From Candidatus Geothermarchaeum rappei (GTDB taxonomy: Archaea; Thermoproteota; Nitrososphaeria; Geothermarchaeales; JDFR-13): a DNA stretch of 64,000 bases. A model generated the notes under the pieces. The model was not told where the DNA came from, searched no databases, and saw nothing but the letters and a program-made list of their open reading frames with translations. How positions within the stretch are numbered: the stretch's first letter is position 1; the number at the start of each line of letters is the position of its first letter. The DNA lies in NCBI GenBank assembly GCA_002011085.2, contig MTMB02000001.1, positions 415,820-479,819 of the forward strand, written 5' to 3'. The translations under genes and the position numbers were made by a program. Shown piece by piece: positions 56,281 through 64,000 of this stretch.

Positions 56281-57315
56281 TTGTTTGAGAATATAATATT
56301 AGTCACGGGCTTCATACTATCGTTTCTAATGGCTATAACACTAGGAGGTAATGATGCCGCGGAACCTACTGATGCTGCAGTGGGAGCTGGAGTAATATCA
56401 ATTAAAAAAGCAGTAATATTTTTCGCCGTCTTTGCAGCTATAGGTGCGATGACTCAGGGATTTATGGTTATGAAGACCATTGGGAAAGGAATTGTTCCTG
56501 AGATTAGTATTGCAGGTGCCTTCGCCTCTGTAGCAGCAGCAGTGATATGGGTGAATTTCATAGCGTCTAAAATGGGGCTGGATGTCTCTGTGACCCACTC
56601 AATTATAGGAGCAGTCCTAGGATACGGGCTTGTATCCCAGGGAATGGAGATGATAAACCAAAAAGTACTGTATATGGTGATATTGAGCTGGGTCAGCTCA
56701 CCATTCGCGGCATTATTCCTTGCATACATATTGTATAAGCTGATAGTCTTTCTAATTAAGACACTAAAAATAGATGTTTATAACGAACGGTTTGAAAAGT
56801 TCCTATCCTATTCTCTGATATTTGCGCTTGCATTTTCGGCTTATGCATTCGGCACCAATGACATCGCGAACGCGACTGGGGTATACGTCACTATTGCACA
56901 GAAGCTTGGGCAGATGCCTGATTATAATGCAATGCTAGTACTAGCTGCCTTCGGATCTATAGGTATAGCTATAGGAGGATACTTTATTGGCCCAAAGGTA
57001 ATATCTACAATGGCCTTTAAAATAACTAGGCTTGATCTATTGACTGGCTTGGCGGCTGAGCTAAGCAATGCATTAGTAGTATATCTATTCACGACATTAC
57101 CATACATTTTCATCGGATTTGGTCTACCAATATCAACTTCATTGGCGACTGCTGGCTCTCTAATAGGCGTGGGTATAGCTGCAGGCGGTAAGGAGAACGT
57201 CGATAAAGATACTGCACTTAGACTTGCATCGTTCTGGGTTCTAACTGTGCCGGTTACAATGATTCTCTCGGCGGGGATATATCTAGTCTTATACTATTAT
57301 CTGGGGGTTCCCTAG
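56281..57315 (+). CDS. PiT-family inorganic phosphate transporter
   Basis: Cation-coupled phosphate permease of 344 aa with about ten membrane helices. The two family repeats are visible as GGNDAAEPTDAAVGAGV near the N-terminus and FGTNDIANATGVYV in the second half. In this family they bind phosphate and cation. The start is read as TTG at 56281, with GGAGGTG about 11 bases upstream. It converges with the DUF47 gene, overlapping by four bases. Confidence 0.88.
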   Translation: MFENIILVTGFILSFLMAITLGGNDAAEPTDAAVGAGVISIKKAVIFFAVFAAIGAMTQGFMVMKTIGKGIVPEISIAGAFASVAAAVIWVNFIASKMGLDVSVTHSIIGAVLGYGLVSQGMEMINQKVLYMVILSWVSSPFAALFLAYILYKLIVFLIKTLKIDVYNERFEKFLSYSLIFALAFSAYAFGTNDIANATGVYVTIAQKLGQMPDYNAMLVLAAFGSIGIAIGGYFIGPKVISTMAFKITRLDLLTGLAAELSNALVVYLFTTLPYIFIGFGLPISTSLATAGSLIGVGIAAGGKENVDKDTALRLASFWVLTVPVTMILSAGIYLVLYYYLGVP

Positions 57316-57974
57316 CCGGTAACCGCCAATCCCCTTATTATATCTCCTGTATCCTCCATACTATCTGACATCATCTCGATGTTCTCAACAGCCTCTTTCA
57401 TCATTAGCCAGTGACTTATAAAATCAACTTTATCAGCCCATCTCAATATCTGAGATATCATCTCTTCTCTAAACTCGTCTATAGACTCCTCTATTCTCTC
57501 TACTTTATTCGTCTCTTCCATAGCTTTCTTTGCATCTTTCATTAGATAGTCTAGGGCATTCTTCAGATGCCTCATCTCATCAAGGGACATCTCTCCAATC
57601 TTAACTAGATTATCTAGAATCTCGTTTGGCACGACACTTGGATCAACATATACAAGTTTTCTAGCAGCGGCTTTCGCATATGAAGCAACGTCATCGGCGG
57701 AGTAAATAAGCCTCATTATATCTTCTCTATCTATAGGGTGTATAACTCCTCCAGTTAACTCGGAGATTATCTCCTCCTTGATTGTATCCGCCTCACGCTC
57801 AAGGTTAAATATATCTTGAAATATCTCCCTATACTCCTCATCCGCCTCCTTAAATTTAGCTAGAAAGACATTAAGCTTCTCAACTATCTCAAGTAGTTTG
57901 TCAAAATGTTTCTTACATATCTTGTAGACTTCTCTCTCCCTCTTCCAACCAAGCCATTTATATGGGTTACCCAT
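57312..57974 (-). CDS. DUF47/PhoU-like protein, PiT accessory
   Basis: A helical, charged protein of about 220 aa related to PhoU, of the DUF47 family that regulates or partners PiT transporters. Recognisable pieces are FNLEREADTIKEEI and the IYSADDVASYAKAAARK segment. The ATG at 57974 is preferred over a start at 57983. It is convergent with the transporter, unlike the usual head-to-tail operon. Confidence 0.78.
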   Translation of the reverse strand: MGNPYKWLGWKREREVYKICKKHFDKLLEIVEKLNVFLAKFKEADEEYREIFQDIFNLEREADTIKEEIISELTGGVIHPIDREDIMRLIYSADDVASYAKAAARKLVYVDPSVVPNEILDNLVKIGEMSLDEMRHLKNALDYLMKDAKKAMEETNKVERIEESIDEFREEMISQILRWADKVDFISHWLMMKEAVENIEMMSDSMEDTGDIIRGLAVTG

Positions 57975-58148
57975 AGATATCACCAGGAGAATATATTTTT
58001 ATTATGTAAAAAATCTTCATGGTACTAGTTAAAGATTTGTAGCTAAAAATACCGTGGTAATTGATATTCAACAATTTTTAATATATATCTTTCAGAAGCC
58101 TGTCTAAATTTTTAGAGACCATAATTGTTTACAACTGGTGTAGTTGAC

Positions 58149-58598: not shown

Positions 58599-60272
58599 TT
58601 ATGAGGATTTTCTTCTAGCACGAGTTACCAAGAAGGTTATAGAAGGCAATAGAATAGGCGTCACGAGAAGCAGTAGAATGACAGGCAGGTTTTCATATAT
58701 ATCAATCTGGATCAATACATCTCCAGATAATATATCACTACAATTTTCCTCATCCATCGTCGGGATCTGTAGACAGAGCCTATATCCTTCCATAGCCGCA
58801 ATGAAGGGGATGTCAGGTTTCATATTAATACTTATGACGTGGGGCATGAGTAGAAATATCCTTTGGAAACTCTCGACAGTTGGTTCAAGGGCCGTCTTTA
58901 CAAAGCTTCCTTCAAGGGTCATCGACGACTTGTTGAGATAGAATATTCTTATGGTTAAATCCACCTTTACGTATCCCAGAGTCTCATCTGCATATAGGGA
59001 TGAAATACTTACATTCGCCTTGATCCCTGTTTCCCCTTCAATATACTTTCCGCTGTTTACAGGTACAGCAAGACTCTCCTTATAATGATGGAACTCTACT
59101 TGGGAGGCAGCAAATACAAGTGATATACCGATCAATAATATGAATATCTTATACTTTATAGAGCGTGGAACGATTATAACAAGGGGAGCCATGGATACAA
59201 TTAGGGAGATAAATGAAGAGATCACCATGGACTCGATAAATAGAGATGTGGTTATGAAGACTGATACATATAATAGGACTAATCCCAATGTTCTCCTGCC
59301 CATCTTCATCAATAGGCCCGTGCATAGCGGGAATACAACGCCTATATATGGATAGAATGCTGTCAAGAAGCCGGACTGGTCAAAGGCATATGTTGAGGGT
59401 GAGAAACCAAAGAACCAACCCTCTATCCACAATATACCTCCTAAAAGCAACAAAATCCATAATCCAGTTTTTACACTATCTCCAATATATTTATCCAGTG
59501 AACCTTTGATCGATGTAAACTCAATATGTTCCTTCACTAAGATATAGCCTGGAACAAGTACATAGTACATTAGCAGCACATATCCTTGGTTTCCTCCATA
59601 TAGTTGACCTGATATGTTAGATGCGTGGAAAGCCAATGTTGTTATTACTGCTAAGATATTTATTAACGCAGATGGATACCTTATAGTCTGATATCCCAAG
59701 TTTATAGATAATATGAATGTAAGGTATGATACCAAGGTTGCCAATAGGAGAGTGTGCATTAGGAATCCAACGTATTCGTATTTGGTAACAGCCACCATGA
59801 TATCCGAGGCCATAGATAGAGCGATAAATACAAATCCCGTGTATATGTACCACTCCTTTTCACTTATCTCTTCTAGGGAAAGGGTAAATACGATGGTTAG
59901 TAACCCGATATATCCCGTTGCGGATACTAAGTAGGCAAGTCCATTGTCATATGTTGACGGTGGTCCTGCCAGCATCTCTACTAAGAGGCTATATAGAGAG
60001 AGTAGAATTAGGAGGCGTATTGAGTATCCTTCTTTCTCTAAATCAAACAATATTGTAGTCGCGATGGTAGATAATCCAGCTATCAGAATTGAATGCCCGA
60101 CAATACTATTCAAGAAAAGAGCGAAGGAGGAGCTAAAAGCTGTTATCGCAGATAACTGTATTACATAGAAGTATTTCTTGGATTTAGGGGCGAGATACAG
60201 GAGGATATTAGTAAAAATAATTGCTGCTATAGGAAGTAAATATAAAAAAGGTTGGTAGTTCGCTGCAGGCAT
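58599..60272 (-). CDS. Polytopic membrane protein linked to multiheme cytochromes
   Basis: A 557-aa protein with about 12-13 hydrophobic helices (residues 1-400), then a beta-rich extracellular domain of about 120 residues (410-525, with NVSISS and NKSS sequons) and a final helix with a basic tail. It has no c-type heme motif and no family I know. Its ATG begins on the base directly after the stop of the tetraheme cytochrome, so the two are translated together. A membrane base, assembly or export factor for the cytochromes, or a quinone-linked electron entry point, are possible roles. Confidence 0.65.
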   Translation of the reverse strand: MPAANYQPFLYLLPIAAIIFTNILLYLAPKSKKYFYVIQLSAITAFSSSFALFLNSIVGHSILIAGLSTIATTILFDLEKEGYSIRLLILLSLYSLLVEMLAGPPSTYDNGLAYLVSATGYIGLLTIVFTLSLEEISEKEWYIYTGFVFIALSMASDIMVAVTKYEYVGFLMHTLLLATLVSYLTFILSINLGYQTIRYPSALINILAVITTLAFHASNISGQLYGGNQGYVLLMYYVLVPGYILVKEHIEFTSIKGSLDKYIGDSVKTGLWILLLLGGILWIEGWFFGFSPSTYAFDQSGFLTAFYPYIGVVFPLCTGLLMKMGRRTLGLVLLYVSVFITTSLFIESMVISSFISLIVSMAPLVIIVPRSIKYKIFILLIGISLVFAASQVEFHHYKESLAVPVNSGKYIEGETGIKANVSISSLYADETLGYVKVDLTIRIFYLNKSSMTLEGSFVKTALEPTVESFQRIFLLMPHVISINMKPDIPFIAAMEGYRLCLQIPTMDEENCSDILSGDVLIQIDIYENLPVILLLLVTPILLPSITFLVTRARRKSS

Positions 60273-61106
60273 CTACAGTGCCGTCTCCCTCTTCCTAACG
60301 AATAGGACACCGATACCAGCCACGCCCGTCATCGCCGCAATGATTATCGTAGACAATGGTGTCGAAGACTCTCCTCCAACTGTCTCAGTTAGTTGTGAAC
60401 TTGTAATCTCGTGTGGCGGTAGCTTTAATGCATATTCTGGTATCCCAATCTTCCATACACCATTATCTAGTTTATATGCACCTACCTGTGCAGGATTAGA
60501 TGCTAAGAAGTGACAACTGAAACATAGTTTCCAAGATGTAGATGATACACTTCCAGCTGGTAATGTACTTAGATACTCATTATTGAATCCGTCCCAAACC
60601 CCCACCTCAATCTCCATACCATTCGCTCCAGCCAGGTTCTTTATAGTTGTTCCCCAAGCAACATTTGTATAATTAGAGCTTGTTAATACCACTGTCTTTG
60701 CAACGAAATCATTTATTGTGGGCTCTAAGGCAGGAAGACTCGTTATATTAGGCTCGTATGCGAATATCCATGCAGCCCATGTACCAGAGTTGTTATAACC
60801 TATGTGTGTGACTGTGTGACAACCCTTACATCCAAGACTCTGATGCACAGTTCCTGACACATAGTTCGAGTGACACTGTAGACAATTACTCCATATCTGT
60901 GTAGCATTATTAGTGAGGTCGTGATCCCAGAAGCTATATGAAGTCCCATTTATTGTGTCTGTAGTTGTTGCTGTTGTTCCATGACATGGCTGACATGAAT
61001 CTGGATGTCCACTGCCAAATGCTAATACCCCTGGTATAGTTGAAGCTGTAAATATCAATAATGATAGTACGAATAGTGGCAATATCACTTTTATATATTT
61101 ATTCAT
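60273..61106 (-). CDS. Tetraheme c-type cytochrome, membrane-tethered
   Basis: A 277-aa secreted cytochrome. Sec signal peptide 1-29, ending LAF. Four c-heme motifs are CQPCH (38-42), CLQCH, CKGCH and CFSCH. Five other His residues (in GHPD, WDHD, VHQS, THIG, PPHE) could give a distal ligand to every heme, so bis-His ligation is possible. A C-terminal helix (about 250-270) and the basic RKRE tail anchor it or act as a sorting signal. GGTGAT before the ATG at 61106 decides the start. It follows the octaheme gene and abuts the polytopic protein. Confidence 0.83.
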   Translation of the reverse strand: MNKYIKVILPLFVLSLLIFTASTIPGVLAFGSGHPDSCQPCHGTTATTTDTINGTSYSFWDHDLTNNATQIWSNCLQCHSNYVSGTVHQSLGCKGCHTVTHIGYNNSGTWAAWIFAYEPNITSLPALEPTINDFVAKTVVLTSSNYTNVAWGTTIKNLAGANGMEIEVGVWDGFNNEYLSTLPAGSVSSTSWKLCFSCHFLASNPAQVGAYKLDNGVWKIGIPEYALKLPPHEITSSQLTETVGGESSTPLSTIIIAAMTGVAGIGVLFVRKRETAL

Positions 61107-61263
61107 TGTTATATCACCTAATAACATAAACATGCGGTATCCATTTAAAGATTTTCTATAGGTAAGCTATATAAGGTATTAATACGTATATATTTATAAA
61201 TTTTGTCCTTTTCGGTATATATGGTATAAAAAATATATGTGAATCTAGTATTTTGTTAACTTT

Positions 61264-62019
61264 CTAGTGGCCGTGACAATCTGTACAAGACTTTCCGGCT
61301 ACATTTGGTGGATTTAAAGGCGCTTGATGGCAGTCGAAACAGCTATTTCCTCTTAAAAGCCCTAAGACCGACTCTGGGCATATTTCTATTTGCCACTTTG
61401 CATCGGAGGAGTGGCACTTTAGACATACCTCGTCATTACCCTTATCAAGCTCTGCTAATGCTAGTGTATGGAACTCACTGTGGTCCTCTATAATCCTCTG
61501 GGGATTGTGGCAAGTGGAGCATGCAACATCTAACTCTTCAAGTGAATGAGGATTGTGACATAGGTTACAGGAGCCTGTACTTAGGGAGATCTTTATATGT
61601 GCGTCGTGTATAGGCATTTCAGTGAGGTCCTGTAGTTTATGGCATTCCAAACATTCGTCTAAAAGTCTTACGTTGACTGCTCCCCTCTCCTTAATTTCTT
61701 CTGGGCTTGGATTTTCGGTGAGGAAGACGATCAGCTCATTTACTACTGCAGGGGTCAGTTCATGGCATGTATGGCAGTTTAGGGCTCCATGAGGTGTTTC
61801 GTCTATAGCGTCTTTAAACGGCTGCATGCTATGACATACTGTACATAATTCGTTTGAAGCAGGGTTATATTCGGTATATGCCAATACAGTTGTAACGGAT
61901 AATATAATTACTGCCACAACTAGGATAGCTACACCGACGCGTGTTAGTAGAAAACCAGCGACCTTAGAGAATATGTTTCTAATGAAATTTACAATTCCTG
62001 AACCTATGGTCGATGCCAT
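61264..62019 (-). CDS. Octaheme c-type cytochrome with N-terminal membrane anchor
   Basis: A 251-aa protein with a membrane helix (about 23-47) and eight CxxCH motifs: CTVCH (59-63), CHTCH, CLECH, CNLCH, CSTCH, CLKCH, CFDCH and CTDCH near the end. Eight further His residues can serve as distal ligands. The anchor-then-heme layout and the first pair of motifs resemble NapC/NirT quinol dehydrogenases and related electron-transfer cytochromes. It lies 157 bp upstream of the tetraheme gene on the same strand. Likely role: moving electrons from membrane quinol to the outside. Confidence 0.85.
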   Translation of the reverse strand: MASTIGSGIVNFIRNIFSKVAGFLLTRVGVAILVVAVIILSVTTVLAYTEYNPASNELCTVCHSMQPFKDAIDETPHGALNCHTCHELTPAVVNELIVFLTENPSPEEIKERGAVNVRLLDECLECHKLQDLTEMPIHDAHIKISLSTGSCNLCHNPHSLEELDVACSTCHNPQRIIEDHSEFHTLALAELDKGNDEVCLKCHSSDAKWQIEICPESVLGLLRGNSCFDCHQAPLNPPNVAGKSCTDCHGH

Positions 62020-62336: not shown

Positions 62337-64000
62337 ATGGTATACAATAAACTTAAAATTATATTCTACTTATTCATGATAACTTTATTAGTCCTTCCCC
62401 TAGTCTCGTCCTTACATGGAGGTTTATCCACAGTATATGGCTCTAGCGGATTCTCCTATTCATCTAAAAAGACATCAAACGGATTTTATGTAAATATGTA
62501 TTACAATGGAGTAGCAATAGGATTTGTTGAGGTATCTGTTGAGAGATTATTTATCTATCCTAGGGAGCCTTATGACATAATCATTGAATTCGGGATATAC
62601 ACAAGCACCTTAAAATCCATTTTAGGAGGGGGCAATGTAGATATCCATATAATTCTGGACTACACGTTTACAATAAACGATGAGGAATCCGTGTCGGGCA
62701 GTAAATTAATAGTTCATGGAGATATAATAAGATTATCTCTTATAACCGACCTCAATGATTTTGATAAAGTGGCTATTGATGAGCTATATTTCACTTTCGT
62801 CTCATATGCTGGGGATAAGGGGATTTCTGGAGTCGTTGATCTGTTGAGTGAGTTCAACAAATATGATGTGCCACGTTACTTCATTAAGAACCTGAATTAC
62901 TATGCTCTATATACTGACTTTAAACTAGTTGATCCAGGATGGGCAAACTATTATATATATCTCTTAGGCAGACGAGTCGGTATACTAAAGATATCTGCCT
63001 CATACTGGTTCAACTATACACCTGCTCTCAGGATATATCTCGATATCTATGACAGAGACCTAGCTAGAATGTTAAACACCACGATTCTCCTCAAGGCTAA
63101 GGCAGATAATCCTGGGGATGAGATAATAGTTACAGCCAATATAACACCTGGCGAAGACTTCATTATTCCTAAGGAGGCTCCCGAGCTAGAGGCTCATGAG
63201 AAGCTAACCATAACAAGTATATCTATTTTATTTAAGATATCCAAGCTGGACATCATGTTAAATGTCTCAAGAGATATTGGAACAATAAATATTGTGAGGA
63301 AAGAATATGAGTACTCTCTCCCATTCAACGCGACTCTATTGGATGTTAAGGAGCTGGGTAGGGGCTGGGTGGAGGCGGATATTGCCGTTGAAGGTAAATT
63401 TGATTATGGAAGCCTATTTATAGACTATGAGCCTTTCGACGGCTATCCATCTCCAGAAATTATAAAGGCTTTTGTCGCTAGGAATGTCGAGGAACATGAT
63501 CTCCTTATAAAGGTCTTAATGTGTTTCAAGGATACGGGTAGGATCATAGGATACGTTAAATTGGGTGAGTTGGCTCCAGAGAAAAGAGTGAGGGTAACTG
63601 ATGTTCCTATTGACATCATTCTATCAACAGCTAATATGATACGCGCATCGGATATCCCCTTAAACTATACAGCTTTGGAAGTCAACATGTCCTGGTACCT
63701 TGAATTAAGTAAATTATTGAGGTGGATCAGGCTAGGTATAGGTAGTGATGAGGAGATTCTCAAATATAGTAAGGAGGCTGCTATATTATCATCTCTCATA
63801 TCTAACTATAGATATTTAAGAGAGTATCTGGTGGAGATACCTATCTCCACCCAGCTGGATATAAGTGATAACATGCTCATCAACACGACGCTATGGATAG
63901 ATGTAGATGATCCAGATAGGCCTGTTGTAATATATATTGAGCCAGTTTATAGCGAGGAGTTTACTCCTTCACCGACAAGCTACAGACAGATGTATAACGG
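62337..64000 (+). CDS. Secreted cell-surface protein, 3'-truncated by the window
   Basis: Open from the ATG at 62337 to the end of the window (554 codons, no stop). The N-terminus has a Sec signal (YLFMITLLVLPLVSS). The rest is beta-rich and carries at least eight N-glycosylation sequons (among them NTT, NIT, NVS, NAT, NYT and NMS), as expected of an archaeal surface protein. No domain is recognised. It is divergent from the multiheme cytochrome genes, so it may or may not belong to their system. Confidence 0.75.
   Translation, partial: MVYNKLKIIFYLFMITLLVLPLVSSLHGGLSTVYGSSGFSYSSKKTSNGFYVNMYYNGVAIGFVEVSVERLFIYPREPYDIIIEFGIYTSTLKSILGGGNVDIHIILDYTFTINDEESVSGSKLIVHGDIIRLSLITDLNDFDKVAIDELYFTFVSYAGDKGISGVVDLLSEFNKYDVPRYFIKNLNYYALYTDFKLVDPGWANYYIYLLGRRVGILKISASYWFNYTPALRIYLDIYDRDLARMLNTTILLKAKADNPGDEIIVTANITPGEDFIIPKEAPELEAHEKLTITSISILFKISKLDIMLNVSRDIGTINIVRKEYEYSLPFNATLLDVKELGRGWVEADIAVEGKFDYGSLFIDYEPFDGYPSPEIIKAFVARNVEEHDLLIKVLMCFKDTGRIIGYVKLGELAPEKRVRVTDVPIDIILSTANMIRASDIPLNYTALEVNMSWYLELSKLLRWIRLGIGSDEEILKYSKEAAILSSLISNYRYLREYLVEIPISTQLDISDNMLINTTLWIDVDDPDRPVVIYIEPVYSEEFTPSPTSYRQMYN

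Follow-up and report, generated by a model that had tools for sequence, protein, structure and literature searches.

The three-gene locus and its surroundings

The window, that is, the whole 64,000-nucleotide stretch of DNA analysed here (G000:C1:415820-479819), belongs to a 1.58-Mb genome that is 89% complete. Three genes on its minus strand encode, in order of transcription, an octaheme c-type cytochrome of 251 aa (61264-62019), a tetraheme cytochrome of the PcECN type of 277 aa (60273-61106) and a polytopic membrane protein of 557 aa (58599-60272), in the co-directional order that an earlier sequence-only reading of this DNA had described. The ATG of the membrane protein follows the tetraheme stop codon immediately, and the two genes therefore abut. 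For the tetraheme protein, an alternative in-frame ATG is present upstream at 61133, and the sequence GGTGAT stands just before the ATG at 61106. A promoter and terminator scan, which does not cover archaeal promoters, returned nothing above shuffled sequence.

The octaheme protein contains eight CxxCH motifs and the tetraheme protein four, and each has a transmembrane (TM) helix, in agreement with the earlier description of twelve motifs in two exported or anchored cytochromes. All 12 motifs fall inside 1.34 kb. The cytochrome count for the genome was obtained by motif search together with selected sequence stretches: the pattern TGYN6TGYCAY occurs 94 times genome-wide, compared with 63 for a reversed-pattern control, and only two other clusters hold at least five CxxCH motifs, with 5 and 7 respectively. 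The concentration of heme motifs at this locus is thus far from chance.

A divergent gene on the plus strand (62337-64000, continuing to 64367 past the end of the window) encodes a 676-aa protein with an N-terminal hydrophobic stretch and a C-terminal TM helix. Its family is present at several ECN loci, with E-values of 1e-46 to 1e-49 to proteins of genomes G008 and G009, and is linked through the G009 protein to a 559-aa relative in G511 (E 7e-8); the 676-aa protein is also a distant relative of a protein encoded upstream of the Pyrobaculum octaheme genes. Just past the window lies a ccm operon in the order CcmF-C-E-A-B (G000:C1:480887-485493), starting about 3 kb upstream of the octaheme gene. 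A complete CcmF with the motif WGGYWAWD is therein encoded about 5 kb from the gene for the polytopic protein.

Two cytochromes and their conserved gene order

When the tetraheme protein was compared with all PDB chains by phmmer, the sole match was 8e5f_A, the PcECN filament protein of Pyrobaculum calidifontis (E 9.8e-12), in an alignment covering both ends of the protein and including the C-terminal helix. A profile built from ten relatives matched the 8E5F chain with an E-value of 6.6e-25. Alignment to eleven relatives shows that each of the nine histidines of the tetraheme protein (four in heme motifs and five others) occupies a column where PcECN also has histidine. The heme sites, located by motif search and alignment on the minus strand, are CQPCH (60981-60995), CLQCH (60870-60884), CKGCH (60816-60830) and CFSCH (60510-60524). 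The third site is CxxCH in the window protein and in those of G001, G008 and G202, whereas it is CxCH in PcECN, in the G009, L035 and G577 proteins and in the other Pyrobaculum-type proteins. Hydropathy and alignment indicate a signal-peptide-like hydrophobic N terminus and a C-terminal TM helix. Phylogenetic analysis groups the protein with the Pyrobaculum ECNs and with the ECN-like halves of longer paralogues (split support 97/92).

Both sequence and gene order give good support for counting the tetraheme protein among the PcECN kind. The link to the P. calidifontis filament, which the sequence-only reading offered as inference, holds on these grounds and on that of the nine shared histidines, and so does its broader suggestion of a cytochrome system of the extracellular-filament kind. 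Filament formation is nevertheless not assured, since identity to PcECN is about 23%, PcECN has a large insert, and a 468-aa paralogue from the same genome as PcECN matches the tetraheme protein better with its C-terminal half (E 1e-36) than PcECN does (E 6e-12). Its AlphaFold model was unusable (pLDDT 39). The parallel drawn earlier with the filament of Archaeoglobus veneficus (AvECN, 8E5G) found no support: AvECN is likewise an archaeal tetraheme cytochrome and forms filaments, but it gave no match to the tetraheme protein, either in the single-sequence search (E up to 10) or by profile (E up to 0.1).

The octaheme protein has a single N-terminal TM helix and a NapC/NrfH-like start, with CxxCHxM at heme 1 (CTVCHSM, 61831-61845, minus strand), followed by the second heme motif (CHTCH, 61762-61776, minus strand). 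The sequence CHxMxPF after heme 1 is kept in all full-length octaheme homologues aligned. Comparison with NapC/NrfH, which the sequence-only reading had called for, bore out a likeness in the membrane anchor and first hemes, but it is limited to these parts: the protein has eight hemes, and its scores lie below the curated cut-offs, both for Pfam Cytochrom_NNT (PF03264; E 0.0017, 18.5 bits against a cut-off of 24.1) and for NrfH (TIGR03153; E 2.6e-5, 24.3 bits against 134.2). The octaheme protein is 37% identical to the one encoded at the PcECN locus (E 2e-50). NapC/NrfH-like starts are typical of quinol-oxidising proteins, and such a start in the octaheme protein makes a relay from quinol to filament plausible. 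Judged by its sequence, the protein is thus a plausible membrane-anchored electron feeder. The genome encodes a MenA-like enzyme (E 2e-27, just under the cut-off); neither the menaquinone-pathway family PF02621 nor NrfD was found in it.

The gene order recurs in other genomes. In a genome of the same genus (G001), the same three genes follow one another and their products are 98% (octaheme), 91% (tetraheme) and 79% (membrane protein) identical to those of the window. An octaheme gene, an ECN gene and a polytopic-protein gene directly 3' of the ECN gene were found in G001, G511, G546, G577, G868/L035 and G202, the last with the octaheme divergent; G008 carries the octaheme-ECN-polytopic set up to a contig end, and G437 has the set in a form that includes a fusion. 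This order is seen in several other Thermoproteota, mostly beside ccm genes and sometimes with a gene between octaheme and ECN; the same-family genome G009 encodes an octaheme protein and an ECN, but no polytopic protein adjoins them. ECN homologues are rare: samples of 400 genomes from the class and 398 from the phylum yielded 5 and 6 genomes with one, respectively. Conservation of the order in relatives leaves the sequence-only reading standing on this point. The possibility that L035, labelled Desulfurococcales, is a stray piece of the genome under study was rejected because its GC content is 55%, while the window region has 40%.

One of the proteins encoded by genome G416 agrees with the 8E5F chain at 385 of 385 residues, so that this genome provides the PcECN locus itself. 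There, the octaheme gene is followed by genes for a 602-aa protein, the ECN, a 438-aa protein with 10 TM helices and CcmF, and then for a second ECN-like cytochrome, CcmC, CcmE, CcmA and CcmB; one extra gene thus stands between octaheme and ECN, and an NrfD-type protein is encoded upstream of the octaheme gene. The two loci share the tetraheme family with its nine histidines and C-terminal TM helix, a neighbouring octaheme and polytopic membrane protein, and ccm genes alongside. They differ in the low identity of the tetraheme proteins and the large insert of PcECN, in the third heme site (CxCH there, CxxCH here) and in the NrfD-type protein, which has no counterpart found in this genome. In the genome under study, moreover, a tandem ECN-like cytochrome and an S16-protease-like protein are encoded at a second locus about 280 kb away.

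The polytopic membrane protein

No Pfam or NCBIfam model matches the polytopic protein, which had earlier been described as belonging to no placeable family. Hydropathy gives 14 helices, and the AlphaFold model has consecutive membrane helices, then a beta domain spanning residues 396-527 and a final helix, close to the roughly 13 helices and outside domain first proposed. The beta domain (58692-59087, minus strand) is predicted to be extracytoplasmic, with a local pLDDT of about 50-69; its cysteines C500 and C511 are conserved in 6 of the 7 homologues aligned. The model was computed from eight input sequences, with no CcmF among them, and reached a pLDDT of 61 and a pTM of 0.64. A Foldseek search of this model (pLDDT 61) against the PDB returned CcmF (6zmq) with an E-value of 3.2e-5, a probability of 1.00 and a TM-score of 0.40. 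It was the sole significant match, the next having an E-value of 0.61, and kinship with an unrelated transporter family, which would have spoken against an electron-transfer cluster, did not emerge.

By sequence, profile comparison (hhalign) of the polytopic protein with CcmF gave E-values of 0.06-0.3, equal to those of controls. A mixed alignment reached 1e-4, but this was due to the G202 protein, and otherwise the value equalled controls; an assignment to CcmF by sequence was therefore rejected, and we cite the likeness to CcmF from the fold match alone. CcmF is characterised by a WWD motif and two pairs of heme histidines (PMC10663686). The WWD motif is absent from every member of the polytopic family. 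Residues of the CcmF-site kind that are common to most members are W286, H478, C500 and C511, and with just one histidine among them, no conserved set matches the P-His and TM-His pairs. In its model, which is of modest quality, the protein would thus resemble CcmF (6ZMQ) in an arrangement of helices, a late extracytoplasmic beta domain and a last helix, but it differs in having neither the WWD motif, nor the CcmF histidines, nor detectable sequence similarity.

Relatives of the 557-aa type were seen exclusively at ECN loci in the genomes searched. The L035 relative is 24% identical over nearly the full length (E 9e-24), and profile comparison with the Pyrobaculum membrane proteins gave an E-value of 2e-5 over the C-terminal 233 columns, compared with 0.1-0.6 for controls. 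The protein in the same slot in G202 is a CcmF relative detectable by sequence (E 9e-10), also without WWD, whereas that of G577 shows no link to the 557-aa protein, to the Pyrobaculum group or to CcmF. The 557-aa family may also have arisen independently of CcmF. As a side observation, most of the loci found have the polytopic gene immediately 3' of the ECN gene, and one genome, G437, encodes a relative fused to an ECN-like cytochrome, an arrangement that suggests physical contact between the two proteins.

The sequence-only reading had placed the membrane protein on an electron path from quinol to the cell surface. We do not retain this role, because the protein has no CxxCH motif, few conserved histidines and a predicted CcmF-like fold. 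From the predicted structure, we infer instead that it may be a CcmF-derived factor for maturation or assembly. CcmF-related genes beside multiheme cytochromes have been described in ANME archaea, where they can be recognised as paralogues of CcmF and one adjoins large S-layer cytochromes (PMC9012536).

A candidate filament system and alternative readings

Gene content, homology, conserved gene order, the predicted fold and the missing motifs are what the analysis shows. The best explanation of the whole, to which we assign a probability of about 0.7, is a PcECN-type extracellular filament with an electron feeder and a CcmF-fold partner in a Geothermarchaeales-like archaeon. The CcmF-C-E-A-B proteins would carry out heme loading at the membrane's outer face. 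With its N-terminal helix as anchor, the octaheme protein would accept electrons from a membrane donor such as menaquinol and hand them to the tetraheme subunit, whose newly made chain would bear a signal sequence as well as a membrane anchor at its C terminus. By homology to the P. calidifontis filament, the tetraheme protein could polymerise outside the cell into a heme wire leading to an external acceptor. The protein with 13-14 helices would be a relative of the CcmF fold that has lost its heme site and helps the filament subunit to mature or assemble.

The sequence itself is compatible with either direction of electron flow, and near the cluster neither a terminal reductase nor a donor enzyme was identified, so that electrons could also pass inward, entering the cell by way of the cytochromes from a donor outside. 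Such a direction is very improbable in our view, given that the octaheme start is of the type found in quinol-oxidising proteins. The TM helix in both cytochromes, together with the resemblance of that start to small quinol dehydrogenases, would also suit a membrane-bound respiratory complex, in which the two anchored cytochromes form a short relay to a surface acceptor with no filament and the polytopic protein is a structural subunit. The octaheme complexes of Pyrodictium delaneyi have been described as membrane-bound respiratory complexes (PMC8105010). The encoded PcECN, however, also has a C-terminal TM helix and yet forms extracellular filaments (PMC12954529), and all nine histidines of the tetraheme protein coincide with histidines of PcECN; we regard a complex of this kind as unlikely.

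With regard to the polytopic protein, the lack of a CcmF link in sequence profiles, the contact suggested by the G437 fusion and the restriction of its relatives to ECN loci would be consistent with a platform for filament export or anchoring that does not descend from CcmF. Against it stand the fold search, in which CcmF was the sole significant match, and the similarity of the G202 same-slot protein to CcmF by sequence; we consider such a platform rather unlikely. The same fold match could be taken to indicate an active heme lyase specialised for this cytochrome, comparable to NrfE or the duplicated CcmF of ANME; there is precedent for dedicated CcmF paralogues encoded beside multiheme cytochromes (PMC9012536). 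Yet no family member has the WWD motif, one histidine is common to most of them, and the complete CcmF is encoded a few kilobases away, which renders a dedicated lyase the least probable of the readings considered here.

Geothermarchaeota have been placed as Geothermarchaeales within Nitrososphaeria (PMC12806544, a review), and a 2015 survey found archaeal multiheme cytochromes almost confined to four orders (PMC4429474). The cluster extends the PcECN gene set to the class Nitrososphaeria and adds a member to the PcECN kind, with what may be a dedicated assembly partner. The physiological role of the P. calidifontis filament has been called an outstanding challenge (PMC12954529), and in the literature searched, with the original PcECN/AvECN description excepted, we found no account of how PcECN is assembled or fed. 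With the genomes set side by side, the assembly problem comes down to a few conserved proteins that lend themselves to testing: the NapC-like octaheme protein as putative feeder, the protein with a predicted CcmF fold that lacks a heme site, and an S16 protease-like protein that is secreted.

The last of these is encoded at the second locus, at about 758-763 kb of the genome. Among its products is a 461-aa cytochrome made up of two ECN-like halves, each of which has four heme sites (7 CxxCH and 1 CxCH in all). Another, of 693 aa, contains an S16 (Lon C) domain that narrowly exceeds the Pfam cut-off, and a third is an FG-GAP propeller protein of 521 aa. The 693-aa protein has a relative in the 602-aa protein encoded between octaheme and PcECN (E 2e-25), and 8 of 8 members of this family have Ser and Lys at the candidate catalytic positions, which we take, from Lon, to be the catalytic pair. 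In G008, the genes for the tetraheme, octaheme and 659-aa proteins form one contiguous series with a propeller gene and the beginning of another cytochrome gene; this arrangement suggests that both loci are parts of a single system. A general scheme, in which PcECN-type nanowires employ both a dedicated CcmF-descended assembly factor without heme handling and a membrane-anchored extracytoplasmic S16 protease that processes the subunits, is put forward tentatively and is in our judgement considerably more doubtful than the filament reading itself.

As a separate observation on gene position, Pyrobaculum has the S16 protease-like gene between octaheme and ECN, and the genome under study has it at the second locus.

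Variation at the third heme site and ECN-type loci of relatives

In many proteins of the extracellular cytochrome filament (ECN) type, the third heme site is CxCH, with a single residue between the cysteines (stretches L026, L035, L054, L055, L056, L057 and L058), whereas the tetraheme ECN-type protein of the window carries CxxCH at this position. In genome G437, an ECN-like multiheme cytochrome is fused to a polytopic membrane domain (L055:7240-9987). Within 20 kb, genome G577 (L058) holds three octaheme genes, one tetraheme ECN-type gene and one longer ECN-like cytochrome; for the polytopic protein of this locus, no link was found either to P0003 (the polytopic protein of the window) or to CcmF.

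Other multiheme cytochromes and a second ccm run

The genome of the window (G000) has a second ECN-like locus (L012:6013-11054; C1 about 758012-763053), comprising a tandem ECN-like cytochrome of 461 aa, an S16-protease-like protein of 693 aa with TM segments predicted at both ends, and an FG-GAP propeller protein of 521 aa. A stand-alone pentaheme cytochrome (L011:8028-8519; C1 about 234027-234518) shares 41% identity with the first part of the window octaheme, and its PF03264 score lies at the cut-off. A second ccm run encodes CcmF, a thioredoxin-like protein, CcmC, CcmE, CcmA and CcmB (L009:8551-13479; C1 about 1563550-1568480), and the 20 kb stretch covering it contains no CxxCH genes.

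Neighbours of the window cluster

Near the cluster, the genes for a phosphate transporter of the PHO4 family and for a DUF47/PhoU-like protein are convergent (window 56281-57983). Between the divergent 676-aa gene and CcmF, a 147-aa protein with an N-terminal helix and a bacterial Ig-like domain (Big_7) is encoded antisense (L007:12220-12663).
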